DNA of 13,533 nucleotides from an uncultured Candidatus Competibacteraceae bacterium (GTDB lineage: Bacteria; Pseudomonadota; Gammaproteobacteria; Competibacterales; Competibacteraceae). The stretch is taken from the NCBI GenBank assembly GCA_937872125.1, contig CALMNY010000316.1:1-13533 (forward strand). The letters run 5' to 3'. Every line of letters begins with the position of its first letter. Positions within the stretch are counted from its first letter, which is position 1. The notes under the pieces are model-generated. The model was not told where the DNA came from. It saw nothing but the letters and a program-made list of their open reading frames with translations, and made no database searches. Made by a program: the position numbers and the translations under genes. Shown here in pieces: positions 752 to 13,533 of the stretch.

Positions 752-796
752 GGGGCAGAGCGGACTCCTGACGGACAGGGCGGGCGACCGGCGTGT

Positions 797-817
797 CCCG
801 GGGGCGCGGCCCCCGGG
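797..817. repeat. Perfect 9-bp stem hairpin in the divergent intergenic region
   Basis: CCCGGGGGC at 797-805 and GCCCCCGGG at 809-817 are perfect complements around a GCG loop. The element sits about 46 bp upstream of the minus-strand start and 137 bp upstream of the plus-strand start. No T-run follows on either strand, so it is not a standard intrinsic terminator. It could shape the 5' leader of the minus-strand gene or serve as a protein-binding dyad; its role is unknown. Confidence 0.5.
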
Positions 818-850
818 CGGCGGGGATTATCGGGCGCGGGGTCGGGGGGT

Positions 851-897
851 TTTGCCGGGAATGCGCGGGTTTTGCCCCCGTTTGCCGGGCAATGCGC
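851..897. repeat. Direct repeat pair, possible operator of the RDD/TPR gene
   Basis: TTTGCCGGGAATGCGC at 851-866 recurs at 881-897 as TTTGCCGGGCAATGCGC, identical apart from one inserted base. The copies start 30 bp apart, about three helical turns, so a regulator could bind both on the same face of the DNA. They end about 56 bp before the ATG at 954. The block also follows a -10-like TAGAAT at 912-917, for which no well-spaced -35 is visible. A regulatory role is inference. Confidence 0.4.
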
Positions 898-953
898 CCC
901 GGGCGCGCACCTAGAATCGCCGGCGGGTCATCACGGGCGGGAGCGGGGGGCAG

Positions 954-2588
954 ATGGGCAGCACGACACACCAGGCGGCGGATGACGTCCCGTTCACGCC
1001 GCTCGCGCCGCACCGTTACTGGCTGGCGGTGGTGGTGGACGGGGTGCTGGCGGGGGCGCTGGGACTGGCCGCCCTGCTGCTGGAGCGCCGGCTGGCCGGG
1101 GCGGCGGGGGTGTCCCCCGGACTGCTCGTCGCGGTCGGCGGCGGCGTGATCAGCGCCTGGCTGCTGGTCTGCTGGGGCGTGCGCCAGGCCACCCCGGCGC
1201 TGGCGGTGCTGGGGGGGCGGATCGTGACCGTCGCCAGCGGCGAGCCGCCGGGCTGGGGGCACTGGGCGCGGCGGTTGCTGGGCGTGGCGCTGCTGGTGGC
1301 GAGCCTGGGTCTGGCCGGGGGGGTGGCGCGGCTGCGCGGGGCGCGCCGCGGCCTGCCGGACCGGCTGGCGGGGACGCGGGTGGAGGCGCGCCCGCCCCCC
1401 GCCCCGCGGACGCGGCGCTGGGCGCCCCGGGTGGCGCTGCTGTGGCTGGGGGCGGCCCTCTTTGCCGTCAGCGGCGCGCTGGTGGTGATCGCGGGGTTCC
1501 AGGCCTTGACCGAAGGGCTGGTGCTGCGCACCCGCACCGCGGCGCAGTTTCCCGATGACGCCCGCTTCGCCCGCCTGTGCCCGCCAGCGGACGCCGCCGG
1601 TGAGGCCAACGGACCCGGGGTGGACGCGGCGGCGCGGGCGGCGGCGCAGGGCAAGCTCGCCGCAGCGGACAGCCGTCTGGTGGACTACGCCGGGGTGACG
1701 TCGCGCCTGGAAAGCGCGCGCAATCTGCTGGACTCGGCGGTAGCGATCGATCCCTGCTACGCCGCCCTCTATGTCGGCTATAGCCGCTATTTTCTGCGCC
1801 AGGCCACCGGGACGGAAACCCCCGCGGCCCTGGCGCGGGCGCGTACCGCCGTGGCGCGGGCGATCGCCCTCGAGCCGGACTACGCTCCGGCGTATGTGGT
1901 GGCGGGATTTGTCGCGCTGCGCCAGGGCGAGCTCGGGGCCAGCGCGGCCTATTTAGACACCGCCGAGCGGCTGGGTTCGACCGATCCCTGGCTGTTGAAT
2001 AACCGGGCGCTGCTGCACGAGGCGCACGGCGACTATGAGGCCGCCGCGGTGCTGTATCACCAGGTGAGCACCGCCAAGGACATGGAGCGGCACGCCCGGC
2101 GCTTCGCCCTCGATGGGCTTGGGCAGTACTACCGGCGCATCGGCGCGGTCGACCGCGCCCGGCAGGTGATCGGCGCGCGCATTGATGCCATTCCCGATGA
2201 CGGGGAGGGGTATGCCAAGCAGGCGGAGTTATTGCTCTGCGAGACCGGCGAGATCACGGCGGCGCTGGCCGCCGCGCAACGGGCCAATGAATTGCAGAAT
2301 AGTCTGCGCACCACCGGCTTGCTGGCCCAGGTGTATGTCGCGCGCTGGGCCGAGCAACTGCTGGCGGATAATCGCCAACTCCGGCGCGAGGCGCAACGCA
2401 GTCTGACCCTGGCGCAACGCCTCCATCCCGTCCCGCCGCCGGAGATGGTGGCCGGGGCCTGTCCGGGGGCGCGGCTGGCGACGCGGGTCGCGGCAGCGTG
2501 GGCGAAACATCAGGCCGATCAGGCAGCGCTGGCGGCACGGCGCGCGCAGGCGCGGCAGGCCAAGCGGCCGGACGCCGCGGGGGGCTGA
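954..2588 (+). CDS. RDD-family membrane protein with C-terminal TPR repeats
   Basis: The 544-residue product begins with an RDD domain: R21 and D29 in a first hydrophobic segment (about 24-43), a second segment (57-75), the family-typical RQATPALAVLGGRIV stretch (77-91), a third segment (about 108-124), and the closing DRLAGTRV motif (136-143). A further transmembrane helix lies at about 160-182. The rest is Ala-rich and helical, with TPR-like units at about 240-460 (for example LDSAVAIDPCYAALYVGYSRY and ALARARTAVARAIALEPDYAPAY). RDD proteins are poorly defined inner-membrane proteins, some linked to ion transport; the TPR part probably binds a protein partner. The start is supported by GGGAG and a G-run just upstream. 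The fusion of RDD and TPR in one chain is less common than RDD alone. No operon partner follows. Confidence 0.9.
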   Translation: MGSTTHQAADDVPFTPLAPHRYWLAVVVDGVLAGALGLAALLLERRLAGAAGVSPGLLVAVGGGVISAWLLVCWGVRQATPALAVLGGRIVTVASGEPPGWGHWARRLLGVALLVASLGLAGGVARLRGARRGLPDRLAGTRVEARPPPAPRTRRWAPRVALLWLGAALFAVSGALVVIAGFQALTEGLVLRTRTAAQFPDDARFARLCPPADAAGEANGPGVDAAARAAAQGKLAAADSRLVDYAGVTSRLESARNLLDSAVAIDPCYAALYVGYSRYFLRQATGTETPAALARARTAVARAIALEPDYAPAYVVAGFVALRQGELGASAAYLDTAERLGSTDPWLLNNRALLHEAHGDYEAAAVLYHQVSTAKDMERHARRFALDGLGQYYRRIGAVDRARQVIGARIDAIPDDGEGYAKQAELLLCETGEITAALAAAQRANELQNSLRTTGLLAQVYVARWAEQLLADNRQLRREAQRSLTLAQRLHPVPPPEMVAGACPGARLATRVAAAWAKHQADQAALAARRAQARQAKRPDAAGG

Positions 2589-2620
2589 ACGGCCGCGCAC
2601 GGACCAGTTGCGCCCGCCGG

Positions 2621-2641
2621 GGGCAGAGGGTAACCTTGCCC
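2621..2641 (+). other. Hairpin with GTAA tetraloop downstream of the RDD/TPR gene
   Basis: GGGCA (2621-2625) and AGG (2627-2629) pair with CCT (2634-2636) and TGCCC (2637-2641), closing a GTAA loop, with one bulged G. It begins 32 nt after the stop codon. No T-run follows, so it may stabilise the 3' end of the mRNA rather than end transcription by itself. Confidence 0.4.
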
Positions 2642-2890
2642 GCAAGCTGTGCATCAGCGATGGCCGACGCCCGCGCGGCGTCCCCGCTCTTTCTCCGTCG
2701 CGGCGCCGGCGCGACCCGGCCGCCGCGGCCGTGGTAGGCCGGTTACCGGTGCCGGCGCGCTCCCGGCGGTCGCCGGCGCGCCCGCGGCGCGTTGGCCGCC
2801 CCCTCTCTCCCGCCTCGTTGCGTCCCTGGCCAGGCCCGGTCCGTCCGCCGCCCGCGCCGCGGGTCGTCCGCTTTCCCTGACGTCACCGCA

Positions 2891-2922
2891 CGTCCTTGTG
2901 CTGGCAAGTAGTCCAGCGATAG
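2891..2922 (+). repeat. 32-bp dyad repeat, copy 1 (upstream of module 1)
   Basis: This block matches 8374-8405 at 30 of 32 positions. Its core is GCTGG (2900-2904), 8 bp, CCAGC (2913-2917), an 18-bp dyad of the size bound by dimeric helix-turn-helix regulators. Looser similarity extends about 20 bp upstream in both places. It lies 138 bp before the nuclease start; copy 2 lies 124 bp before the first gene of module 2. I infer a shared operator or promoter element. The spacing between GG and GC is 11 bp, one too many for a sigma-54 promoter, and no good -10 box is visible. Confidence 0.6.
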
Positions 2923-3030
2923 CAGTCCCGCTCCGGGGGTCTTTTACCACCCCCACGGGGCTGGTGATCACCCTCCGTAGCGGGTCTTGTTCGGCCGGTG
3001 CGCGCACCCGGCTTTCTGACTGACCCCACT

Positions 3031-3054
3031 CACGGGCTGCGCCCCCGTGCGGAG
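3031..3054 (+). promoter_or_regulatory. Leader hairpin abutting the nuclease ribosome-binding site
   Basis: CACGGG (3031-3036) pairs with CCCGTG (3044-3049). The GGAG site at 3051-3054 follows after one base, and the ATG is 6 nt further on. A hairpin this close to the ribosome site could modulate initiation. This start is preferred over an in-frame codon at 2998 because only this one has a ribosome site and because the family's conserved N-terminus begins here. Confidence 0.45.
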
Positions 3055-3060
3055 AATTCC

Positions 3061-3918
3061 ATGAACGAGCTGAAACTAAGCCCCACCGGGGTGCTGCGTT
3101 ACGACACCTGCCCCCGGCAGGCGTTGTTTTACCTGCAGGGTTGGCGGACCAAGGCCAAGGCGGACGCCCTGGTCTTCGGTTCGGTGGTCCACGAGGTGCT
3201 CGCCGGCTATCACGCCGGCACCTTGCCCCCCGACCAGCTGGGCGCCGCCTGGGACCAGAAATGGTCCGCGGCCATCACCCAGCCCATCGCCTACGGCGCC
3301 GAGCGCACCCCGGAAGGGTTGCGTCAGACCGGCGCCGCCTTGTTCGCCGCCTACCATGGCGTCTGGCAGGCCACCGGCCTGCAGACCCTCAGGGATGACC
3401 AGGGCCCCTGCGTCGAACGACGCCTGTTCGTGCGCTTGCCGCGCGCGCAGGTGTTGTTCGAGGGGGTGATCGATCTCGTCGCGACCCGTGACGGTCCACC
3501 GGCGATCGTCGACCACAAATCCCCCGGCGCCAAGCCGGACCCCAACTTCGCCGAAAAGTCGGATCAGCTCCTGGCCTACCAGGCGCTGTTCGACGCCAAT
3601 GCCCCGCTGCATGGATTGGGGCTGGCGGCGCAGATCGGCTTTGCCGCGCTGGTCAAACGCGCGGTGCCGAAAACCAGTCGCGGCACCGGACCGGAGGTCT
3701 TGCCGCCGTTGCTGGTGGAGCGGCGTCCCGCCGCTGAGGTGGCGGCGTATTGGGAAAAGGTCACGGATACCGCCAGCGCCATGCGCGCGGGCAGTTTTCG
3801 CCGCCGGTCCCTGGCAGAGCACAACTCGCCCTGCAAGTTGTGTGAGTACGAAGCCGCGTGTTGGCGCAACGACTTTACCGGCTTGACCCAGGGTCAGGAT
3901 CGCACCCTCGACCTGTAG
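3061..3918 (+). CDS. PD-(D/E)XK nuclease with Cas4/AddB-type iron-sulfur cysteines
   Basis: The 285-residue product has the RecB-like nuclease order (PDDEXK_1 type): N-terminal LSPTGVLRYDTCPRQ with C17, helix FGSVVHEVL with H44, a conserved Glu (E119 in VERRLF), FEGVIDLV with D138, IVDHKSPG with D151 and K153, and QLLAYQ (Q169, Y173). At the end, C258-x2-C261-x5-C267 together with C17 make the four-cysteine set that holds a 4Fe-4S cluster in Cas4 and AddB. All expected catalytic residues are present, so it should be an active metal-dependent DNA nuclease; strand polarity cannot be told. No cas1/cas2, helicase or CRISPR array is in the window, so it is not an ordinary Cas4 or AddB. It is the first gene of module 1, followed 93 bp later by a small cysteine-rich gene and then an AAA+ ATPase. 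Confidence 0.9.
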   Translation: MNELKLSPTGVLRYDTCPRQALFYLQGWRTKAKADALVFGSVVHEVLAGYHAGTLPPDQLGAAWDQKWSAAITQPIAYGAERTPEGLRQTGAALFAAYHGVWQATGLQTLRDDQGPCVERRLFVRLPRAQVLFEGVIDLVATRDGPPAIVDHKSPGAKPDPNFAEKSDQLLAYQALFDANAPLHGLGLAAQIGFAALVKRAVPKTSRGTGPEVLPPLLVERRPAAEVAAYWEKVTDTASAMRAGSFRRRSLAEHNSPCKLCEYEAACWRNDFTGLTQGQDRTLDL

Positions 3919-3926
3919 TTTTCTTG

Positions 3927-4014
3927 GGGGCTACGCCCCAGTCATCCCCGCGGCCCTGGCCAGCCGCGTTCGCTTTCCTGTACGCCCGTGGCCGGGGCGT
4001 TGGAGCATCCCATG
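3927..4014 (+). repeat. Duplicated leader, copy A (before the small Cys4 gene)
   Basis: From CCCCGCGG at 3946 to the ATG at 4012-4014 this 69-bp leader aligns with 4321-4391 (71 bp), with few substitutions and one or two small gaps. Shared landmarks are CCCCGCGG, CCTGGCCAGC with the palindrome CTGGCCAG, GCGTT, CCTG, a GCCC-TGGCC stretch and GGAGCAT at the ribosome site. A small hairpin (GGGGC-TAC-GCCCC, 3927-3939) stands in front, as in copy B. The preservation of non-coding sequence suggests a cis-acting element or a recent local duplication. Confidence 0.6.
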
Positions 4015-4254
4015 GACCACAACATGCTGGTGAAACTCGTCGACAACGGCGGCGTGACCATCCCGCCGGAGGTCATCGCCCAAGTCGGCAAACTGGTGCG
4101 GCAAAACACCCCGCACGACCTCGCCGGCCGGCCCTGGACGCCCTGCGGATTTGAGCGCAACGGCGCCTGTCAGGGCCCCCGCAACCCCCCCTGCCTGATG
4201 GCGGAGGCGGGACGCTGCGGCTACCGCCAGGACCACGACCAGGGTCTGCATTGA
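4012..4254 (+). CDS. Small protein with four evenly spaced cysteines
   Basis: The 80-residue product has a short N-terminal half with the turn DNGGVTIPPEV followed by a helix (about 18-31), and a C-terminal half with C45, C53, C61 and C69, each separated by exactly seven residues. Four Cys plus nearby His (H75, H80) could bind zinc or an iron-sulfur cluster, though the C-x7-C spacing is not one of the classic CxxC types. The ATG at 4012 is chosen over a GTG at 3988 because GGAG lies 6 nt upstream and because the matching leader before the ATPase gene ends at the same point. It sits between the nuclease and the ATPase genes. I do not recognise the family; an accessory or adaptor role is a guess. 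Confidence 0.75.
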   Translation: MDHNMLVKLVDNGGVTIPPEVIAQVGKLVRQNTPHDLAGRPWTPCGFERNGACQGPRNPPCLMAEAGRCGYRQDHDQGLH

Positions 4255-4281
4255 TCCCGGCCCGCCGGCTGCTCACGCACC

Positions 4282-4301
4282 GCCGCCCAGGCGGCATTTT
4301 T
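4282..4301 (+). terminator. Intrinsic terminator or attenuator before the ATPase gene
   Basis: GCCGC (4282-4286), loop CCAG, GCGGC (4291-4295), then A and five T (4297-4301). The stem is short but pure GC. It lies 28 nt after the stop of the small gene and directly before the second leader copy, so the ATPase may have its own transcription start or depend on read-through. Confidence 0.5.
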
Positions 4302-4302
4302 C

Positions 4303-4391
4303 GGGCGTAAGCCCTATCACCCCCGCGGTCCTGGCCAGCTGCGTTATTACCCCTGATTTGCCCTTGGCCCGGGCATGGGAGCATTCTCATG
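4303..4391 (+). repeat. Duplicated leader, copy B (before the AAA+ ATPase gene)
   Basis: This is the second copy of the leader described at 3927-4014. It starts with a hairpin GGGC-GTAA-GCCC (4303-4314, GNRA-type loop), continues with CCCCGCGG at 4321-4328 and CCTGGCCAGC, and ends with GGGAGCAT and the ATG at 4389-4391. The similarity to copy A is in non-coding DNA, while the downstream genes are unrelated. Confidence 0.6.
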
Positions 4392-5408
4392 AGCATGATT
4401 CAGACTGTTGAAATTTCCGTGGCCCAAACCTTTGGGGTCAACGTGCCAGAGGGGATGACCCTGCCCCGGTATGTCGACGGCCACCCCCTGCAGCATTTGG
4501 TGCCGCGTGTCGAAGCGCACAGCTTCGATCTCGATCTCCTGGCGCGGGGCATGGGCTGGCTGGTCGATGAGGAGCTGCAAGCCAACCCGCTGCTGTTGTG
4601 GGGGCCGCCGGGCTCGGGCAAGTCGAGCTTCGCCGCGCAAGTCTCGGCGCGGTTGAACCGCCCCCTGATCCGCGTGGACTGCCACGCGGACATGGATGCC
4701 CGCGATCTGCTGGGCGGCCTGCGGCTGGTGGACGGCGAAACCGTGCCCCAGCCGGGACCGACGGCGGTCGCGGCGCAATTGGGCGCCATCTGCCTGCTGG
4801 AAGAGGTGGACCGCCTGCGGCCGGAGACCCTGGTGGGTCTGAACGGCGTGTTGAACGGTGACGCGGTGCGGCTGCCCGAGGACCCGGGGACCATCTACCA
4901 ACGGGCGCCGGGGTTCGCGATCATCATGACCGCCAACACCAACCTGGCGCGGGACCCGCAGGCGCGCTACGTCTCCAACTCCCACGACATCAGCCTCCGT
5001 GATCGGGTGTTCCCGATCCACGTAGGGTATATGACGGAGGAGGCGGAGATCGCCACCATCCTCGAGCAGGTCCCCCTGCTCGCCAATGGCGGCGAACCGG
5101 AAGTGGCCAAGATGGTGAAACTGGCCCGGGCCTTGCGGGGCGGCTTTGTCGCCGGCGAGACCTCCTTCGTCATCAGCACCCGCACCCTCGTGCGTTGGGC
5201 GCGAGCGCTGACGATGTTCGTCGGCAGCGCGAACCGCATGGGCGTGCCGCCCCTGCTGTACGCCCTGAACGCCAGCTTCGCCGATGGGCTGGATGAGGAA
5301 GAGCGCACCATGCTCTTCGAGGGGTACCGCACGGTGATTGGCGACCAGGACGGTCGCTTCCAGGAGGCGGTGCGCAAGCTGGGCCGAACGACCTACGAGG
5401 GGGCGTGA
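4389..5408 (+). CDS. MoxR/CobS-like AAA+ ATPase
   Basis: The 339-residue product carries Walker A GPPGSGKS (72-79), the CobS/MoxR-style segment RVDCHADMDARDLLGG (95-110), Walker B ICLLEEVDR (134-142), sensor 1 in IIMTANTN (N183) and an arginine-finger region SLRDRVF (R204, R206), then a helical lid. The first Walker B acid is Glu (E138) in place of the usual Asp; the catalytic Glu (E139) is kept. MoxR-family ATPases act as chaperone-like remodelers, usually with a vWA protein; none is found here. GGGAG lies 7 nt before the start. The gene overlaps the next by one base (TGATG), so the two are translationally coupled. It is the likely energy-using core of module 1; proteins with the shared W-F tail are candidate substrates or adaptors. 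Confidence 0.92.
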   Translation: MSMIQTVEISVAQTFGVNVPEGMTLPRYVDGHPLQHLVPRVEAHSFDLDLLARGMGWLVDEELQANPLLLWGPPGSGKSSFAAQVSARLNRPLIRVDCHADMDARDLLGGLRLVDGETVPQPGPTAVAAQLGAICLLEEVDRLRPETLVGLNGVLNGDAVRLPEDPGTIYQRAPGFAIIMTANTNLARDPQARYVSNSHDISLRDRVFPIHVGYMTEEAEIATILEQVPLLANGGEPEVAKMVKLARALRGGFVAGETSFVISTRTLVRWARALTMFVGSANRMGVPPLLYALNASFADGLDEEERTMLFEGYRTVIGDQDGRFQEAVRKLGRTTYEGA

Positions 5409-5857
5409 TGACCACCCCCGCCACCCCGGCGCCCCGCTACCGCAATTACGGGGAGCTGATCAACCCCGCGACCAACACCTGCAAATTCTGGCTGGTGGAG
5501 GAGCGGCAGGGGGCGGTCTGGGTGCGGCACGGACGCATCACCCCGACCATGGGCAGCACCCCGGAGGAGCGCTGTCGCACCCTGATCGCCCACCCGAACA
5601 CGGCGGCGGTCAAGCGGGTGGGGCAGCTGGTGGGCGCTGGCGCCCTGATGACCGCGGTGGTCCGCGCCAAGGACAAGGCCAAGGAAGGTTACACGCTCCT
5701 TTGGGAGCCGTTGGCCGGCCAGCCGGATCGGGAACTGACCGCGTCCCCCCCGGCGACAACGGACGCGGCGCCCCGTCCCACCCCGGAGCCCGCTCCGGAC
5801 GCGACCCCACCGGAATCACCCGCGCACTGGACCTCCCAGGCGCGGCACTGGTTCTAA
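5408..5857 (+). CDS. Degenerate WGR-domain protein with W-F tail
   Basis: The 149-residue product has a WGR-like domain at about 19-98: NPATNTCKFWLVEE, then VRHGRITP where the name-giving Trp is His (H41-G42-R43), and a closing AKDKAKEGYTLL. WGR domains bind nucleic acids in PARPs and occur alone in bacteria. A Pro/Ala/Thr-rich linker (about 99-138) leads to the tail PAHWTSQARHWF at the very C-terminus. The same tail type ends the products at 6044-6916 and 9227-10048, which are otherwise unrelated to this one. The start ATG overlaps the ATPase stop by one base; G-rich GAGGGGG lies just upstream. A GTG at 5405 is an alternative one codon earlier. It probably works directly with the ATPase. The domain call is by motif and moderately certain. 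Confidence 0.82.
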   Translation: MTTPATPAPRYRNYGELINPATNTCKFWLVEERQGAVWVRHGRITPTMGSTPEERCRTLIAHPNTAAVKRVGQLVGAGALMTAVVRAKDKAKEGYTLLWEPLAGQPDRELTASPPATTDAAPRPTPEPAPDATPPESPAHWTSQARHWF

Positions 5858-5867
5858 CCGGCGGCGC

Positions 5868-5894
5868 GGGCCAGACAGTCTCCCTGTCAGGCCC
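5868..5894 (+). other. Hairpin after the WGR gene
   Basis: GGGCC-A-GACAG (5868-5878) pairs with CTGTC-A-GGCCC (5884-5894) with a single A-A mismatch and a 5-nt loop, 10 nt after the stop codon. There is no T-run, so it may protect the 3' end of the ATPase-WGR message or assist termination. Confidence 0.45.
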
Positions 5895-5944
5895 GTGCCC
5901 GCTCACCCTGACCCCGCGCGCGGCGGTGACGGACGGCACTCCCC

Positions 5945-6007
5945 GTGAGTACCTTCCGCGCCGTTCGCGCTTTTTTTTATCCCGGTTCGCGCCCCGGGGT
6001 TACTCAC
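5945..6007 (+). promoter_or_regulatory. Inverted repeat flanking a terminator-like hairpin
   Basis: GTGAGTACC (5945-5953) and GGTTACTCAC (5998-6007) are complementary apart from one extra base. They enclose the hairpin plus eight T at 5958-5978. The pairing could form a long-range stem in the leader of the next gene or mark a dimeric binding site. It does not overlap the terminator stem, so it is not a classic antiterminator. Confidence 0.35.
5958..5978 (+). terminator. Short intrinsic terminator between WGR and next gene
   Basis: GCGC (5958-5961), loop CGTTC, GCGC (5967-5970), then eight T (5971-5978). The stem is only 4 bp, but a run of eight T stands out in DNA of this GC content. It would separate the nuclease-to-WGR unit from the gene at 6044. 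Confidence 0.5.
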
Positions 6008-6043
6008 GACTGGCGGTCGCGCCCCGCCCTGGAGAAAAAAACG

Positions 6044-6916
6044 ATGACCAGGAGACCGTTTGCGCCCCCCCAGCCCGTGTCCTGCCGCGGCTACACGACG
6101 GTCGATATCGAGGCCTGCGTGCGCCGGCCGACGGCGGCGGCCCAGGACCAGTTTCTGGCGGACTTTCGCCGCTGGGGGATAGGGCTGTGGGCCAACGAGC
6201 TCAACGCCCTCCGGCTGCTGGTGGATCTGTGCCAGGACTGGCGCAGCTTCGCGCTGCTGGAGCGGGTCGCCGCGCTGGAACTGCCGAGCTTTTACCTGTG
6301 GATTCGCCGCTCACGGACGCCGGAAGCGCTGAGCCGCTTGTTTGGGGATTACGTGGTGGCCCACCAGGCCGTGGGCATGCACCTGCCGCGCTGCAGCGGT
6401 TTGTTCCCGCTGGGGTGGCTGGTGACGTCGCCGCTGGAGCTGGGCGCGATGCTCCGCCCCTGGCAATTCGTCGCCCAGGGCCCGGTGGGCACGCCGCCGA
6501 ACTGGGCGTTTCCCGCCCGCGCGTTGCTCGACCCGCTGCTGGCTAAACTCACCGCGGAACGGGGCGCCGCCGACGCGCGGGCCCGGCTGGATGACGCGGC
6601 CCTGGAGGTGCTGCTGACGCCAGCGGAAGCGGTGACCGTGGTCTCACGCCGCCAGGCGCGGGCCTATGTGGTCCACGGCAGTGGCGGTCCCCAGCGTCGC
6701 CTGGACGCGCCACCCGCCGGGGAGCCGCTGACGGTGGTCGCCACCCGGCCCGCGGCGGGCATCGCCTTGTGCTACGCCCACGCCGGGGGCTATGACCTGG
6801 TGACGGACCCCGCGCTCGCGGCCCTGCGCCCGGGCACGACGGTGGACGCTTCGCCACCGGGACCCCTCCGGAAGAGCGTGACCCCGCCGCTTTGGCAGGG
6901 GCGTATCTGGTTCTAA
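6044..6916 (+). CDS. Unrecognised protein with W-F tail, paralogue of the 9227-10048 product
   Basis: The 290-residue product matches no family I know. It aligns over most of its length with the 273-residue product at 9227-10048: F83-Y84 with F64-Y65, G111-M112 with G90-M91, WQF 140-142 with 121-123, WAFP 154-157 with WEFP 138-141, S201-R202 with S191-R192, and GGY 248-250 with 237-239, at similar spacings. It ends in PPLWQGRIWF, the tail also found on the WGR protein and on its paralogue. No signal peptide or transmembrane helix is seen, so it is probably cytoplasmic. GGAG lies 9 nt before the ATG; an in-frame GTG at 5945 has no ribosome site and would cross the T-run. A helical N-terminal half and a beta-rich C-terminal half are likely from residue pattern. 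Confidence 0.85.
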   Translation: MTRRPFAPPQPVSCRGYTTVDIEACVRRPTAAAQDQFLADFRRWGIGLWANELNALRLLVDLCQDWRSFALLERVAALELPSFYLWIRRSRTPEALSRLFGDYVVAHQAVGMHLPRCSGLFPLGWLVTSPLELGAMLRPWQFVAQGPVGTPPNWAFPARALLDPLLAKLTAERGAADARARLDDAALEVLLTPAEAVTVVSRRQARAYVVHGSGGPQRRLDAPPAGEPLTVVATRPAAGIALCYAHAGGYDLVTDPALAALRPGTTVDASPPGPLRKSVTPPLWQGRIWF

Positions 6917-6934
6917 AAGCGCCGTACGACTCCA

Positions 6935-6977
6935 CCGCACAGACCCGCCGTAATCCGGCGACTGTGCGGTTTTGTTT
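6935..6977 (+). terminator. Intrinsic terminator ending module 1
   Basis: CCGCACAG (6935-6942) pairs perfectly with CTGTGCGG (6962-6969). Inside, CGCCG (6946-6950) pairs with CGGCG (6956-6960) around TAATC. TTTTGTTT follows at 6970-6977. It lies 18 nt after the stop codon and is a textbook rho-independent site. Confidence 0.88.
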
Positions 6978-7114
6978 GCCCCGTAAAGCGCGTCGTACCC
7001 CGCACCCCCCCGCGTCAGGGCGGGTGGCAACGCGGTACGATTCTGCGGGCGTGCCGTCGCCCTTCTGCCACGGTATCCAACCGCCATACCATCGCCTCAC
7101 CGCGCGGTTTTCCC

Positions 7115-7120
7115 TACAAT
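7115..7120 (+). promoter_or_regulatory. Likely -10 box of the lipoprotein gene
   Basis: TACAAT at 7115-7120 matches the sigma-70 -10 consensus at 5 of 6 positions. It lies 31 bp before the ATG at 7152, between a strong terminator and the gene. No good -35 is seen at 16-18 bp, so the promoter would be weak or activator-dependent. Confidence 0.4.
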
Positions 7121-7151
7121 GGCGCCCTGGTCTTACCCCGTGGAGAACCCC

Positions 7152-8183
7152 ATGCGTTTTTGGCTCACCCTGTGCACCGTCGCGTTACTGGGCGGCCTGT
7201 CCGGCTGCGATCACGCCCCCTCGGCTCCGGTGACGAGCGCCGGGAGCGGAAAGGAAGAAGCCGCGCCGGCCGCCGCCGCGCCGACGGTTGAGGAGAGTCT
7301 GCTGTATTACGGCGGCCGGCCCACGGTCACCGATGCGCGCCTGCTGTACCTGTCCGCCTATCAGCAGCAGAACCTGGGTCAGCCTGACGCGCTGAGCCCC
7401 GCGGCGCTGGGCCAGCGGCTGGCGGCACACGCCCAGCGGGCCCTGGGCGGCGACACGGCGGCCTTTGCCCGCCACCCGCCGCTGCTCAGCCTGCTGAGCC
7501 TGACGGTCGGCGCCCGGGATCACAGCCTCGACTTCGGCCCGCTGTACGCCCGCGAAATCCTGCGCCGGCCGTCGCTGACCCTGCTCGGCACGGTTCCGGC
7601 CGCCGGCGCGCAACCGGGGACCCCGGCTTACGGCGCGCCGCTGGAGGCGCTGTTCGCTCAGGGCGCCCGGCTGCTCCAGGCCACCTCCCTCGCCTGTGAG
7701 CCGGCGCGCCCCGCACCGGACGCCGCGCCGGCGGACGGCGGGGGGCGCCTGGCCGACCCTCACTACGGGGTGGCGAACGTCATTCACCAGCAGAGCTATA
7801 CCTGCGCGCGCCGGGTGGCCCCGGCGGACGGGCACGATCCCCTGGGGCTGTATCAGGTGGGCGTGACGGCGTTCCCGGTGCATGAGGCCCCGCCCGCGGT
7901 CACGCGCGACTTCGGCTACGCCGGGATTACCGGCACCCTGGCCCGGGCCGGCGATCCGCTCGTCATTGTCACCCTGCCCTGGCTAGATGAGTTCCCCCAT
8001 CTGGGCGGCGATCAGGCGGCCTGGACGCTGCTCGACGAGCTCAAGATGGCCCTGCCGACCGGCTGGTATTACCTGCTCAGCGCCGCCCCCCCGGGCGTCC
8101 CCGGCGGCGGCCTGATGCTCTACGCCGGCCGCCAGGAGGAGGGCGCGGTGACGCCCACCGCCCTGGGCGCCTTGCCCTATTAG
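7152..8183 (+). CDS. Putative lipoprotein of unknown function
   Basis: The 343-residue product opens with a lipoprotein signal peptide: R2, hydrophobic core, and lipobox L16-S17-G18-C19. Residue +2 after the Cys is Asp (D20), which in the E. coli Lol rule keeps a lipoprotein in the inner membrane. A low-complexity linker (about 23-45, Ala/Pro/Glu) tethers the folded part. The rest has helical stretches, a few Cys and an aromatic-rich C-terminal region (LPTGWYYLLSA). GGAG is 6 nt before the ATG. It lies between two modules whose products share a tail, but it ends in ALPY and lacks that tail, so membership of the system is unclear. Family not recognised. Confidence 0.82.
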   Translation: MRFWLTLCTVALLGGLSGCDHAPSAPVTSAGSGKEEAAPAAAAPTVEESLLYYGGRPTVTDARLLYLSAYQQQNLGQPDALSPAALGQRLAAHAQRALGGDTAAFARHPPLLSLLSLTVGARDHSLDFGPLYAREILRRPSLTLLGTVPAAGAQPGTPAYGAPLEALFAQGARLLQATSLACEPARPAPDAAPADGGGRLADPHYGVANVIHQQSYTCARRVAPADGHDPLGLYQVGVTAFPVHEAPPAVTRDFGYAGITGTLARAGDPLVIVTLPWLDEFPHLGGDQAAWTLLDELKMALPTGWYYLLSAAPPGVPGGGLMLYAGRQEEGAVTPTALGALPY

Positions 8184-8373
8184 CGCCCCCGGCGCCACGT
8201 CCCCGTGCCGGCCGGCGCGCACCGTTTGCCCGCCCGGGGTGCGCTATCGTGACCATCCGCGGTCTGGCAGCCACCGCCCCGGGTCGGCGCGGACCACTCC
8301 CCTCCCGACCCGTGGCCCGGCGCCTCACCCCGGCGCGCGCCCGGCCCGCGCTCCCCCTTTCTCCGACGCACCG

Positions 8374-8405
8374 CGTCCTTGTGCTGGCAAGTATTCCAGC
8401 GACAG
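8374..8405 (+). repeat. 32-bp dyad repeat, copy 2 (upstream of module 2)
   Basis: Second copy of the element at 2891-2922 with two differences: G to T in the dyad spacer and T to C near the 3' end. GCTGG (8383-8387) and CCAGC (8396-8400) are unchanged. It ends 124 bp before the ATG at 8530. Retention of both arms while the flanks have diverged supports a binding site. Confidence 0.6.
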
Positions 8406-8462
8406 GTAACCCTCACCGGCAACGGTATGCGGGTTCCCGGGTGTGCCCGTTTCCGGGCCGGT

Positions 8463-8485
8463 CGGTTGGCAGGCGCAGCCAACCG
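8463..8485 (+). other. Perfect leader hairpin of module 2
   Basis: CGGTTGGC (8463-8470) pairs with GCCAACCG (8478-8485) around a 7-nt loop, 44 nt before the start codon at 8530. No T-run follows. It may be a leader structure that affects mRNA stability or translation, or a second operator. Confidence 0.45.
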
Positions 8486-8529
8486 CCGCCGCTTGATTCA
8501 TCGCCGTTGCGCACGGCCAGGAGTGACAC

Positions 8530-9243
8530 ATGACCTCACGTTTCATCAGTCGCATTGGCGACTCCCTGCGCGATTTCGCGCATTCGCTCGCCGTGCAATG
8601 CACGGGCTACAACCTGCCGAAGGGCACCATCCGTTTTAACGGTACGCTGCACGGCGACCGGGTCTTCCAGGTCCTGGGAGGGCCGCGGGTGGAGTATCTG
8701 GAATTGCTGGCCGCCAGCGTCCACCTGGATGTGAACCGCCTGGGCGAACGGCTCTCGCAGTGGATGACCGGCTACAGCAAGGCCATGGACGGGCTGAGCG
8801 TGAAGCAGCTGGAGGTGGCGAAGCTGATGGATTCCCGCGTGCGGGTCGCCCTGGCGCAACGGATGCGTCAGGCCCGCCGGTGGCAAGCCTTTGACACGGT
8901 GTTCCCCACCCTGGACCGGACCTTTGCCGTGCCGCCGGGGCTCGCCCAGGACGTGCGGACCATCCGCCTGACGGGAGCGCCGGGCGATCAGCCGGCGCTG
9001 TTTGCGCCGTTCGTCGCCGGTACCTGGCTGCCCAGTGGCTATCAGGACATCTGGGACGTCCCGGAGGATTTCATCAAGGAGCGGATCTGGGCGGGTTTCA
9101 TCGCCTTTGAAGGACACGATGGGACCACCCTGCGCCCCCAGCCCCACCGCCCGGTGGCCTGGCAGCGCGGGGAGGAGGCCGCAGCGCTGCCGGCGCTGTG
9201 GGCCGTGTGCGTCAGGGAGGCCGGTCATGGACATCAACCTTGA
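8530..9243 (+). CDS. Unrecognised 237-residue protein, first gene of module 2
   Basis: The product has no signal peptide or membrane helix. The middle is helical with a basic stretch (about residues 100-125, SRVRVALAQRMRQARRW), and the C-terminal third is rich in aromatic residues (WLPSGYQDIWDVPEDFIKE). It lacks the W-F tail, though it does hold a VAW and an LW near its end. AGGAG sits 6 nt before the ATG, a strong start. The gene overlaps the next by 17 nt (next ATG at 9227), showing translational coupling and a shared role. Family not recognised; a cytoplasmic partner of the tailed protein encoded next is the best guess. Confidence 0.83.
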   Translation: MTSRFISRIGDSLRDFAHSLAVQCTGYNLPKGTIRFNGTLHGDRVFQVLGGPRVEYLELLAASVHLDVNRLGERLSQWMTGYSKAMDGLSVKQLEVAKLMDSRVRVALAQRMRQARRWQAFDTVFPTLDRTFAVPPGLAQDVRTIRLTGAPGDQPALFAPFVAGTWLPSGYQDIWDVPEDFIKERIWAGFIAFEGHDGTTLRPQPHRPVAWQRGEEAAALPALWAVCVREAGHGHQP

Positions 9244-10048
9244 TCTTCGCCCCCTGCTGGCCACCGGCGACGAGGCCGTGCTGGACGAGCTGGTCCAGGC
9301 CTGCGTCGCCCACGGCGCGGCGATCACCTACCGCGGCGTGCCCGTGCTGCCGCTGTTGCTGGATGCGCAGCGCTTTGCGGCGCTCAATGCCATCGCCCAG
9401 GCCCGCCCGCCGGGGTTTTATCAGGTCTTGCGCGCCAGCCATGGCTACAACGAGGGGCACCGCCTCTGGCGGCGACTGGTGGCGCAGGTGGCCGGCATGG
9501 AAGCGGTCTTTAGCCCGCTGCTTGCCTGGCAGGAGCTGGTCACGGTGATGGCGTCGGAGCTGGATGTGACGCGAATTGTCGCGGACTGGCAGTTTGCGCC
9601 CGACACCCCGGGCGCGGGCTGCACCCTGGAGGTGCCCTGGGAATTTCCCGAGGCGCCGGTGGCCCGCACACTGGCGGACCATTTCCAGCGTGTGGGCGGG
9701 GCCGCGGCGAAGCCGCTGGCGCCGGAGACGATGACGCGCATTGCCGCCCAGGTGAGCTATCAGGGGCGGTTGCCGGGAACCCCGATCACGCCCGCGTCGC
9801 GGGCCTGCGCCGATGGCTACCTGAGTGGGCTCAGCCACGGACCGCGCTACCGGGAGGGCACCCGACCGGCGTCGTTCTATGACATCCGGGCGGTGATCCC
9901 GGCCAAAGAACTGGTGCTGGTGTTTTATGCCACCGGCGGCTATGAGGTGGTGCGCAATCGCGCCATCGCCCAGGGCGAAGGGGGGCCGCTCTTTGCGCTG
10001 GACACGGCGCCCAGTCCCCCGGCATGGGCGACCCGGGCGTGGTTCTGA
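9227..10048 (+). CDS. Unrecognised protein with W-F tail, paralogue of the 6044-6916 product
   Basis: The 273-residue product is a divergent paralogue of the 290-residue protein of module 1 (shared anchors FY 64-65, GM 90-91, WQF 121-123, WEFP 138-141, SR 191-192, GGY 237-239). It ends in SPPAWATRAWF, the same W-x2-R-x-W-F tail as its paralogue. No signal peptide or membrane helix is present. AGGGAGG lies 6 nt before the ATG inside the end of the upstream gene. A start further upstream in this frame (9002) would overlap that gene for over 200 bp and has no ribosome site. Function unknown; the tail and the upstream dyad repeat tie it to module 1. Confidence 0.86.
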   Translation: MDINLDLRPLLATGDEAVLDELVQACVAHGAAITYRGVPVLPLLLDAQRFAALNAIAQARPPGFYQVLRASHGYNEGHRLWRRLVAQVAGMEAVFSPLLAWQELVTVMASELDVTRIVADWQFAPDTPGAGCTLEVPWEFPEAPVARTLADHFQRVGGAAAKPLAPETMTRIAAQVSYQGRLPGTPITPASRACADGYLSGLSHGPRYREGTRPASFYDIRAVIPAKELVLVFYATGGYEVVRNRAIAQGEGGPLFALDTAPSPPAWATRAWF

Positions 10049-10070
10049 CCCGGAGGGTCGTCGGCCAGCA

Positions 10071-10128
10071 ACCCCCGCGGACGAGGTGCAGGACTTCCCC
10101 CTGCACCCGCCCGCGGGGGTCTTTTTTT
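10071..10128 (+). terminator. Strong two-part intrinsic terminator ending module 2
   Basis: The outer stem ACCCCCGCGG (10071-10080) pairs with CCGCGGGGGT (10111-10120), 10 bp. The inner stem GGTGCAGG (10085-10092) pairs with CCTGCACC (10100-10107), 8 bp. Seven T follow at 10122-10128. It starts 22 nt after the stop codon and faces the convergent gene beyond. Confidence 0.93.
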
Positions 10129-10163
10129 GCCCGCGTGCCGGGCGCGGCCGCGCCGGGGGGCGG

Positions 10164-10865
10164 TCAGGGCGTCCAGTGCACGACCGGACTGGCCTGCCCC
10201 TTGTCGTTGGTGGCGATGAGCTGCACCTCATGCAGCCCCCGCGCCAGTTGCGCCGTGCTGAAGGACACGGCAGCGCTGGTGCTCTGCCCGGGATCCACCA
10301 GCGTCCCGGGGGCGTCGGCATAGCGCAGCTGCCACTGGTAGCGGGCGATGCGGCCCATGGGCACCGTGCACTGCGCCTTGAGCGTCAGGGCGGTGACGCC
10401 GTCGCCGCTGGCGGTCAGGGCACAGTGCGGGGGCTCGCCGGCGATCAGGGTGACCGTGGCGGGGGCGCTGGCCGTGCGCCCATAGTTGGTCTCCAGCTGC
10501 ACCTCGAGGGCGTAGTCGCCGGGGCGGGGCGCCTCAAAGCGCATGTTGCTGACCAGACGGTCGCTGACCACCTGCCCGTTGACCAGGAAGCGCAGGGCGG
10601 TCACCCGCTCCTGCTCCAGCAGCCCCCCGGCATACCAGTAGACCGACACCGGCGCGGGCGCGCGCCGCCATTGATCGCCGACCACCAGCCGGGTGTCGAG
10701 GGTGATCGCCAGCGGGTCCGGCACGGTCAGGGTGTCTTCCAGCACCGCCTCATGCCCGCGGGTATCGGTGATGCGCAGGCGCAGCGGATGGCTGCCGGTG
10801 GTGCGCAACGCCACCGTGACGTCGGCGTCGTGCCGCTGGTCGACCTGCGCCTGCGGCGGAAAGTC
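10164..10865 (-). CDS. C-terminal open piece of the broken surface protein
   Basis: Same frame as the preceding piece, directly after the TGA. It begins DFPPQAQVDQRHDADVTVALRTTGSHPLRLRI, the second half of a PKD-like unit (the usual G-x-y-x-V-x-L-x-V-x-D ending is visible as LRLRITDTRG). Two more Ig-like units follow, one with RYQWQLRYADAP, and the chain ends at SPVVHWTP with a TGA at 10166-10164. A GTG at 10814 could serve as a start, but no ribosome site is seen. It is convergent with module 2, whose terminator lies 36 bp beyond its stop. Confidence 0.5.
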   Translation of the reverse strand, partial: DFPPQAQVDQRHDADVTVALRTTGSHPLRLRITDTRGHEAVLEDTLTVPDPLAITLDTRLVVGDQWRRAPAPVSVYWYAGGLLEQERVTALRFLVNGQVVSDRLVSNMRFEAPRPGDYALEVQLETNYGRTASAPATVTLIAGEPPHCALTASGDGVTALTLKAQCTVPMGRIARYQWQLRYADAPGTLVDPGQSTSAAVSFSTAQLARGLHEVQLIATNDKGQASPVVHWTP

Positions 10866-13379
10866 TCAGGTGTAGGTCAGCGGCTCATCGCCCAGAGGGG
10901 TGCGCGTCTGGCTCACGGTGTAGCGCACGGTGGTCGGGTCGTATTCGCGCAGCACCTTGGCGGTCCAGGCGAAGGTGGGGAAGACGTAGGTCCAGGGACG
11001 AAGCGGCAACGCGGCCACCGTTTCGGTTTCCGTCCGATAGCCCGGCACCCAGGCGCGGTAGCGCAGGACCTGGTCGGCGTCCGGGGTGACGGTGTAGTCG
11101 AGCGCCACGCCGGGCTGCACGCTGCCGTCCGGCAACAGCCACTCCCCGGTGATCGTCAGACCCTCCGGCGGCGGCAACCGGCTGTGCAGGGGCAGGAGGG
11201 TGACTGCGTAGGCGTAGGTCCGCCCACTCTCGACCACGGTTGGCCCGGTGATGAGGGGGGTGCGCAGGCGTGGCGTCAGGACGGCGACGGCCCCCCGCGC
11301 CCGCTGCCAGGCGCCGGGGATGTCCGGCGCCGCCTCGTAACGTCCCAGGACCTCGAGGCTCCAGGTGGCGGTGATGTCCGCCGGCAGGTTGATCACCGGC
11401 CCGGTGCCGGTCAGCCAGTGGGTATCGCTCAGGCCGCGCCGCACCCGCCAGCGATAGTCGACCGGGCGCGGATCCGCCCCACTTCTCGCCGTCCAGGTCA
11501 CCGCGTGCCCGGTGAAGGTGAACTCCGGGCCGCTGAGGGTGAGGGTCGGCACATCGTAGATGTGGACCTGGGACGGCGCGCAGACGGCGCTCAGCCCGCT
11601 GTGGCGGTTGGTCAGCGTCGCCTGAAAGCGATAGATCCCCGCCGCCGGCAGGTGGGCGACATAGGCAAAGGCCCGCGTCTGGTCCGGCGCCGCGGGGAGT
11701 TCCTGCCAGTCGCCGTCGTCGACCGCCTGCGCCCAGGCAATCGTCCCGACGTCGGTGTTGCGGTGACGATCCGCCGGCACCACCTTCTGCGCCGCCGCGG
11801 TGCCCGGCGTACCCGTGGCCTTGGCGGTCGTCACCTGGCAGTCCACCGGCGCGCCGGCGGCCACGGTGAGCGTGACCGCGCTGCTGGTGACCTTGGCCGC
11901 CGGTCCGGTGTGCGGCGAGCGATACACCGCCTCGGCCACCAGCCGGTGGCGCCCGGCCGCCAGCCGGCCAACGGGCAGGGCAAACCCGCCGGTGGCCGCG
12001 ATGACCTCGGTGGGCGTACCGACCGCTTCGCGCTGCCAGCCGTCGGCGCGGGCGGTCTCGCGGTAGAGCTGGAGACGCCACGTCCCCATGGTCGCGGCAT
12101 CGTAGTGATAGGCGCCCTCGCGATAGGTGCCGAACGCCCCGGTGAGCACCAGATCCTGCGCGCTGTGCGGCGTCGGCGGGCGCTGGAGATTGAGACTGAG
12201 TTTCCCCGGCAGGGCGACGAAATGCAGGACGCTGTCGCTGACCACCTCCGGGTGGCGGGTATAGAAGGCGCGCAGCTGCAGCCGTTGCTTGTCGCCCAGC
12301 GCGGCCAGCTCGGTGGTCAGCACGGCGCGGGCGCTGCTGGTGGTCGAGCGCAGGTCATGCAGCACGGCGCCGCTGGCGACATCGGTGATCTGCAAGGTGA
12401 CCCCGGGGTAGGGCGCGCCGTTGACCAGCACCCGGCCGGCCGCGTGGCGCCCGGGGCGCGTCGGCCAGGAGCCGTCCGGCAACCAGTCGGTCTGATAGCC
12501 CAGGGCGCCGGTGACCTGGTAGGTCAGCTGCGGTGGCGCGGGCTCGACGATCGCCAGCGGGGTCAGGACCGGCCCCGCGTCGGGGAGAAAGTGATAGACG
12601 CCGTCCTGCGCGACCAGCAGTCCCGGCTGGTAGCGGAGCGGCACCGTCCCGGCGGCCGCCTCCAGGTAGCCCTCGAGGCGCGCGGGCTGTCCCGCCAGCG
12701 GCGCCAGGCCGTCCGGCGGGTCGACCCAGTACCCGGCGCACACTGCCTGGCCGTCGGCGCCCGCGGCGGGCGGGGTGGCGTCCGTCGCCAGCACCCCGAC
12801 GACGCCTGCGGGGCAGAGCGGGTCGGCGCGGCCTTCCAGGGCGAGACGCACCGGCTGGATCCGGCGCGCATACGCCGGCTCCACCCCGGTCACGGTCAGC
12901 CGCTCCGCCGGTGACCAGGCCCGCAGCGGGGCGCTCAGACGGCGCACCACGGCCTGGTTAATATCGACCTGCAAGGCGCCGTGCTCGCCTTCGGCGAGCT
13001 GCTCGGGATGCGCCCAGCGCAGGGGCAGGGTGAGCCGGCCGTCGTTGGCGGCAAAATCGTAACCGGGCAGGGTGAGCTGCGCCCCGGGGGCCAGGGTCTG
13101 CGTGCCGATCACCAGGCTGTCGCCGGCGTCGGCGGACAGGGTCAGGTTGAGGTCCGCGACGCCGGTAATCCCGCTCGGCTCCGAGGTCAGCGGCCACAGC
13201 CCGGAGGGATGGCGGACCGCCTGGGCGCCGACGACGCGCGGCAGGGCGATGGCCAGGGCGGTGAAACTGGCCGTGCAGGTGGTCGCCGCGGTGAGGGTGA
13301 CGACGCCATCGGCACAATCCGGGTCGCCACTCCAGCCGGCGAAGACGCTGCCCGGGGCCGGCGTCGCGGCCAGGGCCAC
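10866..13379 (-). CDS. Longer open piece of the broken surface protein (837 residues)
   Basis: This piece can be read from a GTG at 13379, but that codon lies inside a conserved domain ([22 protein letters not shown], a divergent InlB B-repeat; the frame itself is open back to 13469), so it is not a natural start and no ribosome site precedes it. The B-repeat ends by about residue 40. A long beta-rich region with few Cys follows, then several Ig-like units of about 90 residues (for example the one with [11 protein letters not shown] and the one starting [19 protein letters not shown]). The piece ends DEPLTYT at the TGA. Such arrays are typical of secreted or outer-surface adhesin-like proteins. 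Whether any product is made is doubtful. Confidence 0.55.
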
Positions 13380-13476
13380 GACCGTGCCGGCGAGGAAGTC
13401 GGCCGCGCATTGTGCGCCGCAGTCCAGCCGGGGCGCTGAGGACGCGGCCGAAGCCCTCCTTGATGACGGTTAGCTA

Positions 13477-13533
13477 GTAGGTCATTTCTTGTCATTTCAC
13501 ACCATAACCAGTAAGAGGCCAGACAACCCGCAA
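13477..13533. other. AT-rich junction with tandem 8-bp repeat at the window edge
   Basis: Base composition drops from about 70 % GC to roughly 45 % in the last 55-60 bp, and coding similarity to the surface protein stops here. GTCATTTC occurs at 13481-13488 and 13491-13498, 10 bp apart. Repeats of this sort are found near the ends of some insertion sequences, such as the IS21 family, so this could be a mobile-element edge that cut the gene's 5' part away. The DNA is too short to decide. Confidence 0.3.

Follow-up and report, generated by a model that had tools for sequence, protein, structure and literature searches.

Sequence comparison gives solid grounds for the view that unrelated proteins of a recombination module of plasmids and integrative and conjugative elements (ICEs) share a short aromatic C-terminus, which changes in concert within each element. 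We describe this feature from a stretch of 13,533 nucleotides of an uncultured Candidatus Competibacteraceae bacterium (contig CALMNY010000316.1, positions 1 to 13,533; hereafter, the window), where three proteins encoded near a CobS-like AAA+ ATPase end in R-x-W-F. Overall, the carriers are the exonuclease (Exo), the WGR-position protein, and the DUF3150 protein, joined in IncC by Bet; in the window, they are a WGR-like protein and two proteins that we call X and Y. Each element has its own version of the tail, which suggests labelling for one shared, element-encoded machine. We propose that the tails are probably an element-private C-terminal recognition tag: a label read by machinery from the element's own genes, most likely the CobS-like AAA+ ATPase together with a VWA/HExxH partner.

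In the window, both the translations of the open reading frames and the DNA confirm the three endings reported in the original prediction, each followed by a stop codon. The features that concern the tag are these:

5408-5857, + strand: WGR-like protein with tag, directly 3' of the ATPase gene, as in most related modules (sequence, homologues)
5819-5857, + strand: tag PAHWTSQARHWF and stop, end of the WGR product (sequence)
6044-6916, + strand: protein X, no family match, tagged (sequence; homologous to protein Y)
6884-6916, + strand: tag PPLWQGRIWF and stop, end of protein X (sequence)
9227-10048, + strand: protein Y, no family match, tagged (sequence; the homologues P0002-P0004, 71-91% identical, keep the tail)
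10013-10048, + strand: tag SPPAWATRAWF and stop, end of protein Y (sequence)
4389-5408, + strand: CobS/MoxR-like AAA+ ATPase, untagged; the proposed reader of the tag, by itself or together with a VWA partner (PF07728, 82.2 bits; CbbQ_C, 20.8 bits with a cut-off of 20.6)
3058-3918, + strand: PD-(D/E)XK nuclease upstream of the ATPase, with an untagged end, ...DRTLDL (PF12705, 85.2 bits with a cut-off of 22; phrog_1218 exonuclease)

Proteins X and Y are homologous (BLASTP E 2e-10, 29% identity). The WGR product is unrelated to this pair and of another fold, and a Pro/Ala-rich stretch precedes its tail, both as predicted; the last 12 residues begin at 5819 rather than at 5822, where the feature had been placed. 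One C-terminus is thus found on non-homologous proteins of one locus, the WGR product and the X/Y family, and also on proteins of contigs C10 and C181 of the same metagenome-assembled genome (MAG). From the residue frequencies of the eight forward genes of the window, the probability of an R-x-W-F end is 4.8e-5, which gives p ~6e-12 for three in eight, and 0.16 such ends would be expected by chance per 3,300 genes (an assumed gene number). Homologues, which the original prediction expected to keep the tail, were examined for protein Y and the WGR product, and X was compared with its window paralogue Y only. The tail is present in five of the six non-self homologues: three of four for Y (P0002, P0003, and P0004; P0005 has a diverged C-terminus) and two of two for the WGR product (P0007, 86%, and P0008, 60%). 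Among the WGR homologues, the linker varies and the tail is constant.

The window ATPase belongs with a wider family of loci, and the window shares with these a CobS-like AAA+ ATPase gene that adjoins a WGR-position gene (4389-5408 and 5408-5857 in the window). Relatives of the ATPase occur in eight genomes at 29-37% identity. Adjoining them are a WGR-like and a DUF3150 protein (PF11348), after which comes a CobT-like VWA protein; the tails of the two carriers are alike: ...EWFY/...DWFF in G003, ...DWFF/...AWFF in G025, ...AWFY/...DWFY in G028, and ...GWFF twice in G008. R-x-W-F is the form that a wider feature takes locally. The form W-x(2/4)-R-x-W-F given in the original prediction holds in the element of the window and its close relatives and is limited to them; the upstream Trp and Pro, taken there as constant, are not general, since the C181 protein has no such Trp. 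As the general form of the tag, R-x-W-F was rejected; ends in other elements include SFYF, DFCC, and SLYF.

On plasmids and ICEs, the module comprises ssb, recT/bet, exo, the ATPase, the WGR-position protein, DUF3150, and VWA, in varying order and content. DUF3150 is matched in more than 1,100 of 72,556 plasmid records, and an N-terminal HExxH pattern is present in 36 of 39 plasmid VWA proteins. Our sample consists of 49 loci with a complete DUF3150 gene, drawn from named plasmids, picked by hand to be diverse, and from genomes that were searched according to kinship, class, phylum, and order. Single linkage at 70% DUF3150 identity set aside eight near-duplicates and left 41 distinct elements. 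Loci L065, L066, L068, L069, and L124 were left out of the counts, as were frames running off a contig edge (among them the L139 exonuclease, which ends AMWF) and one frameshifted coding sequence (CDS) of L085. The WGR-position label was given by location next to the ATPase, on its 3' side, where records are annotated and, elsewhere, by a hidden Markov model built from those; most of the proteins so labelled are not detectable as WGR by Pfam. An unlabelled protein after the ATPase of L157 (...MSLFL; the DUF3150 protein there ends ...FALFL) was counted among the other CDS.

We scored a protein as tagged when at least two of its last four residues are F, W, or Y and the last residue is hydrophobic. 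By this rule, the tag is carried by 14 of 20 Exo, 18 of 19 WGR-position, and 24 of 41 DUF3150 proteins, and by none of the AAA (0/37), VWA (0/39), SSB (0/17), or RadC (0/4) proteins; SSB was accordingly rejected as a carrier. Only 6 of 207 other annotated CDS of the plasmid loci are tagged, compared with 56 of 80 carriers (Fisher p=2.6e-33). A looser measure, an aromatic last residue, gives 67/80 for the three carriers (35/41 for DUF3150), 5/93 for AAA, VWA, and SSB together, and 23/207 for the other CDS.

Individual elements display the same selectivity. Two aromatics in the last three residues occur in 4 of 78 CDS of pR997 (SXT-like by gene content): Exo (SSFYF), the WGR-position protein (QNYYF), DUF3150 (NSFYF), and a LexA-family regulator (IIDFW; 84408-85055). 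In pALVIN02, the 4 of 46 are Exo (SFYF), the WGR-position protein (SFYF), DUF3150 (SFFF), and an IHF-like protein (FVYF; 10615-10902, minus strand). Two of the six tagged other CDS resemble each other: small proteins of two Pseudomonas plasmids, ending ...EEFDW and ...PTFDW (L083:8482-8799 and L156:8436-8762). These small proteins, the LexA-family regulator, and the IHF-like protein may be further clients.

The rule was later applied unchanged to homologues of one exonuclease, where 105 of 120 are tagged among the matches listed (120 of 139 found); these are relatives of a single query and hence not 120 independent cases. The last two positions of these ends are the most conserved (entropy 0.70 at -1 and 1.41 at -2, compared with about 3 upstream). 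Six phage exonucleases, from 42 phage records with a match, are all untagged, and the 3.7-3.8 kb stretches around them have no annotated ATPase or VWA gene.

Central to our reading is that the tails of one element agree with each other. In the order Exo/WGR-position/DUF3150, they are SFYF/SFYF/SFFF in Allochromatium, SFYF/NYYF/SFYF in pR997, GIWF/GVWF/VVWF in P. frederiksbergensis, DFCV/DFCC/DFCC in P. aeruginosa, AFCL/SFCF/DFCM in P. psychrotolerans, EWFY/EWFF/GWFF in L102, QFAW/CVYW/EVIW in L107, and SLYF in all three proteins of L099. Exceptions include Azospirillum, where Exo ends AAAA, L105 (NAYL/GMFF/GFYF), and L140 (Exo NLCW, DUF3150 LSAF). Similarity was scored by BLOSUM62 over the last four residues and compared with 10,000 permutations: within elements it reaches 13.6 versus 5.6 for Exo-WGR (n=14), 11.7 versus 4.1 for Exo-DUF3150 (n=20), and 19.1 versus 8.2 for WGR-DUF3150 (n=19), all three at p=1e-4, the floor of the permutations. 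A comparison with the nearest relative, which takes out much of the shared ancestry, gives the same picture. An element's tails agree better with each other than with those of its nearest relative in 11 of 14 cases for Exo-WGR (3 worse; p=0.010), 15 of 20 for Exo-DUF3150 (5 worse; p=0.005), and 17 of 19 for WGR-DUF3150 (1 worse; p=0.0003). The predicted terminal tag on unrelated folds for a common partner is in this way strongly supported, by three unrelated families, dozens of elements, and their co-variation.

We compared tag distances with protein-body distances by Mantel correlations, which are corrected only in part for phylogeny and not for the number of tests. The DUF3150 tag correlates with AAA at 0.42, VWA 0.39, its own body 0.32, Exo 0.20, RecT 0.07, and SSB 0.04; the WGR tag with AAA at 0.59, VWA 0.56, DUF3150 0.37, its own body 0.29, RecT 0.08, and SSB -0.26; and the Exo tag with AAA at 0.48, SSB 0.46 (n=13), DUF3150 0.34, its own body 0.33, VWA 0.32, and RecT 0.10. 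With the DUF3150 body partialled out, the DUF3150 tag (n=35) still correlates significantly with AAA (0.29) and VWA (0.27). The MoxR-like ATPase, named in the original prediction as the obvious partner, fares well in that each carrier's tag tracks its body better than the carrier's own; VWA is close behind for two of the three carriers. We infer that the receptor is most likely the untagged pair of the element, the CobS-like AAA+ ATPase and the VWA/HExxH protein. Among proteins of solved structure, midasin, NorQ, CbbQ, and CobS are closest to the ATPase in sequence, and all four are AAA+ proteins that act with VWA or MIDAS partners. The ATPase scores below the NCBIfam CobS equivalog cut-off (TIGR01650, 60.1 versus 558.55 bits).

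The same correlations bear on the strongest competing account, in which the C-termini are an assembly tag that docks the carriers to each other or to another protein of the module (e.g., DUF3150 or WGR) and the ATPase and VWA proteins merely co-evolve. Co-variation among carriers would be expected here too, DUF3150 is without a known function, and in some loci the ATPase lies 8 kb off or is not seen. We nevertheless regard this account as unlikely: with AAA or VWA controlled for, the DUF3150 body explains little of its tag (partial r 0.11, not significant), and AAA is a better guide than DUF3150 to the WGR and Exo tags (0.59 versus 0.37 and 0.48 versus 0.34).

Several points weigh against an element-encoded AAA+-VWA reader. 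Besides the partial correction of the Mantel correlations, these are the correlation of the Exo tag with SSB, the values for AAA and VWA given each other (0.22 and 0.20), which do not separate the two, and the scan of AAA, VWA, and DUF3150 in 40-residue pieces, which revealed no hot spot for a receptor region. The rule for scoring tags was fixed when the first tails were already known, and 17 of 41 DUF3150 and 6 of 20 Exo proteins fail it; RecT is tagged in 1 of 17 cases (the IncC Bet, ...GSYY). In the window, the nuclease has no tag, and genes for DUF3150 and VWA are missing; the MAG carries its only copies of them on another contig. Finally, in the one stretch of cyanophage KX349322 that was checked (L161), where CobS lies near a 703-residue annotated peptidase with HExxH (pair at 2002-4113 and 4815-5885), none of 18 neighbours is tagged.

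A receptor supplied by the host is quite unlikely. The SSB tip and the ssrA tag are known C-terminal signals, and on this account the tails would mimic the acidic SSB tip (...DDDIPF) or a sliding-clamp motif, or would be degrons for a host protease (e.g., ClpXP). Acidic residues do precede many tags (e.g., DDDGDYFF), and the carriers act on DNA. However, such receptors are conserved in hosts, yet elements of one genus have different, jointly changing tags: the DUF3150 tags of Pseudomonas plasmids are DFCC, VVWF, and DFCM. This makes a conserved host receptor improbable, and the reader should be element-encoded. The tags of the window are moreover basic (R at -4), not acidic.

As a separate observation on SSB, some copies run several residues past the usual DDDIPF tip: MRLHHLAGG in L083:3909-4454, REVPFLCMI in L086:6087-6617, and YYGHVG in L106:3464-4045, with similar last residues in L152, L154, and L156. 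These extensions raise the question of a hidden tip or a second signal.

On the reading that we prefer, an ATPase/VWA complex would take hold of a tagged protein by its free C-terminus and pull on it. Pulling might strip complexes of the nuclease, WGR, and DUF3150 proteins off DNA or apart, or else feed the HExxH domain for degradation, and with each element drifting to a private tag, the machine of an element would stay with the recombination proteins of that element. More tentatively, conjugative elements may carry their own ATP-driven unfoldase/protease (CobS-like AAA+ plus VWA-HExxH) that reads its clients by a private C-terminal code, with the clients' tags changing together and so keeping the recombination machines of co-resident elements apart; if true, this would be an evolving address-and-removal system for mobile-DNA recombination.

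A role in processing, in which the VWA protein would trim the tagged ends with its HExxH domain and so switch proteins on or off, is very unlikely, even with HExxH in most VWA proteins and with a pair of MoxR and VWA-metallopeptidase proposed, in the accessible text of PMC7824862, to process structural proteins of jumbo phages. Three of the 39 VWA proteins have no HExxH pattern, and conservation peaks at the very last residue, a pattern more in line with the reading of a free end than with cleavage.

The MAG (3.49 Mb in 553 contigs, 80.7% complete) provides a test of how common the ending is. The DNA pattern CGNNNNTGGTTYTRR, which covers R-x-W-F with CGN but not AGR arginine codons, is hardly enriched, with 19 places compared with 15 for the reversed control; the signal therefore lies in the gene ends. 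Real stops stand at 13 of the 19 places, 6 of these 13 end frames of at least 100 codons, and 5 are gene-like: the three window proteins, one protein on C10 that is cut by the contig edge (...TPAWCGRAWF*), and a second WGR-like protein on C181 (...PPPGGRQWF*), 31% identical to the window WGR product over 100 residues. Equal frequency in unrelated genes, an outcome that the original prediction had named as contrary to a tag, is thus not seen for CGN codons. An artefact of chance, composition, or an outer-membrane-barrel signal is hardly credible: two C181 frames do end GVRYAF and GLRFAF, which we take to be typical of barrels, and the bare pattern is scarcely above its control, but the carriers are nucleases, WGR, and DUF3150 proteins rather than barrels, and the enrichment, co-variation, and conservation in homologues led us to reject both the barrel signal and chance.

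Short C-terminal peptides that bring unrelated proteins to one receptor are well known, as in the SSB tip, the ssrA degron, and encapsulin cargo peptides. These are conserved or bound to one host or shell, whereas the element tags diverge and change together on all carriers. The closest parallel is the Rubisco activase CbbQ-CbbO, a MoxR AAA+ protein with a VWA adaptor that requires the extreme C-terminus of its client, as described in the available part of PMC5385338; CbbQ is also, as noted, close in sequence to the window ATPase. The Rubisco activase differs in serving one client, in its genes and function, and in that this part of the paper reports no tag common to unrelated proteins and no HExxH. 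On the best reading, the tag would be to the AAA+-VWA machine what the last residues of Rubisco are to CbbQO. In RavA-ViaA, the VWA domain connects the motor with its substrates (PMC10585395, in part).

Functions of the module itself have been reported in part for related elements. Bet and exo of SXT (s065 and s066) promote the formation of hybrid ICEs (PMC2786100), and in the IncT plasmid Rts1, deletions of orf223 (RecT domain) or orf224 (exo) are among those that cut conjugation to 1/20-1/100 (excerpts of PMC10838148). The Red-like bet/exo module of SXT/R391 ICEs and IncC, with its adjoining ATPase, DUF3150, and VWA genes, has the gene families and order of the tagged loci; the tag, its co-variation, and a link to the ATPase/VWA pair go unmentioned in the accessible sections of PMC2786100. 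The window differs from this module in its nuclease, which is not of the lambda-exonuclease (YqaJ) type found in most related modules, and in having the DUF3150 and VWA genes on another contig. No RecT-like product is found among the window proteins scanned, and exo or recT is missing from several other loci of the set too.

Jumbo phages resemble the plasmid module in having a MoxR/CobS-like ATPase and a VWA protein with an HExxH domain (PMC7824862, same limits). A CobS-like match is found in 511 phage records. MoxR-VWA conflict systems of multicellular prokaryotes likewise have MoxR and VWA genes side by side, with conserved aromatic motifs at the N-terminus of the ATPase; the portion of PMC7159879 at hand mentions no WGR, degron, peptide tag, or CobS. 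PADLOC models gave no convincing defence match, only weak matches to Cas4/DruK nucleases and IetA/mad8 P-loop proteins (E >=2.5e-6), and none at all for WGR, X, Y, DUF3150, or VWA. In the open-access literature searched, a scope that excludes subscription papers, we found no account of the tag and no paper with the name DUF3150. Terminal peptides read by AAA+ proteins are known; a private tag common to unrelated clients and changing in step from one element to the next is a new form of such a signal.

ATPase, DUF3150, and VWA genes are present on widespread plasmids and ICEs, and the tag joins them with the Red-like exonuclease as one system. With it, likely clients can be named by sequence alone, and the role of the plasmid CobS/CobT-like pair becomes a direct question of binding. 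Co-varying tags on unrelated proteins would also give a natural data set on how AAA+-VWA machines read C-termini.

Within the MAG, the window ATPase, on contig C316, is the sole match at E<=1e-20; WGR-like proteins number two (C316 and C181), and the single DUF3150 and VWA genes are both on C540 (loci L104 and L162). The C540 DUF3150 protein ends ...RERRSIW, with R at -4 as in R-x-W-F and I-W instead of W-F; R at this position is unique to it among 41 DUF3150 tails. We infer that C316, C540, C181, and C10 may be pieces of one large replicon. GC content does not decide for or against this: it is 0.72 in C316 and C10, 0.66-0.69 in the stretches of C540 and C181, and 0.57-0.69 in 13 other stretches. 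A DNA scan of 59 genomes for W-x2-R-x-W-F revealed no convincing gene end outside the MAG among matches with a readable locus, and scans of genome and viral contig collections yielded no relative for the window ATPase, for protein Y, or for alignments A1 and A2. The WGR product itself is below the Pfam gathering score (PF05406, 17.5 versus 22 bits), while a Geoalkalibacter protein at the same position reaches 23.2 bits. With a mean predicted local distance difference test score of 46.6, the AlphaFold2 model of protein Y was not good enough to look for related folds.

Other genes of these contigs deserve brief mention. A lipoprotein-like gene of the window (7152-8183) is matched by a second copy, 49% identical, at the end of C181 (L071, C181:30542-31510); C181 also bears, by eye, recA and ssb, besides the second tagged WGR-like protein. 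On C10 (L022, C10:1-7906), the fifth R-x-W-F protein is accompanied by several related small proteins (35-56% mutual identity) and a possible HSP90-type ATPase, all without clear families. On the minus strand of the window, positions 10164-13379 hold two long frames (216 and 837 residues) that appear, by eye, to encode a repeat-rich surface protein.

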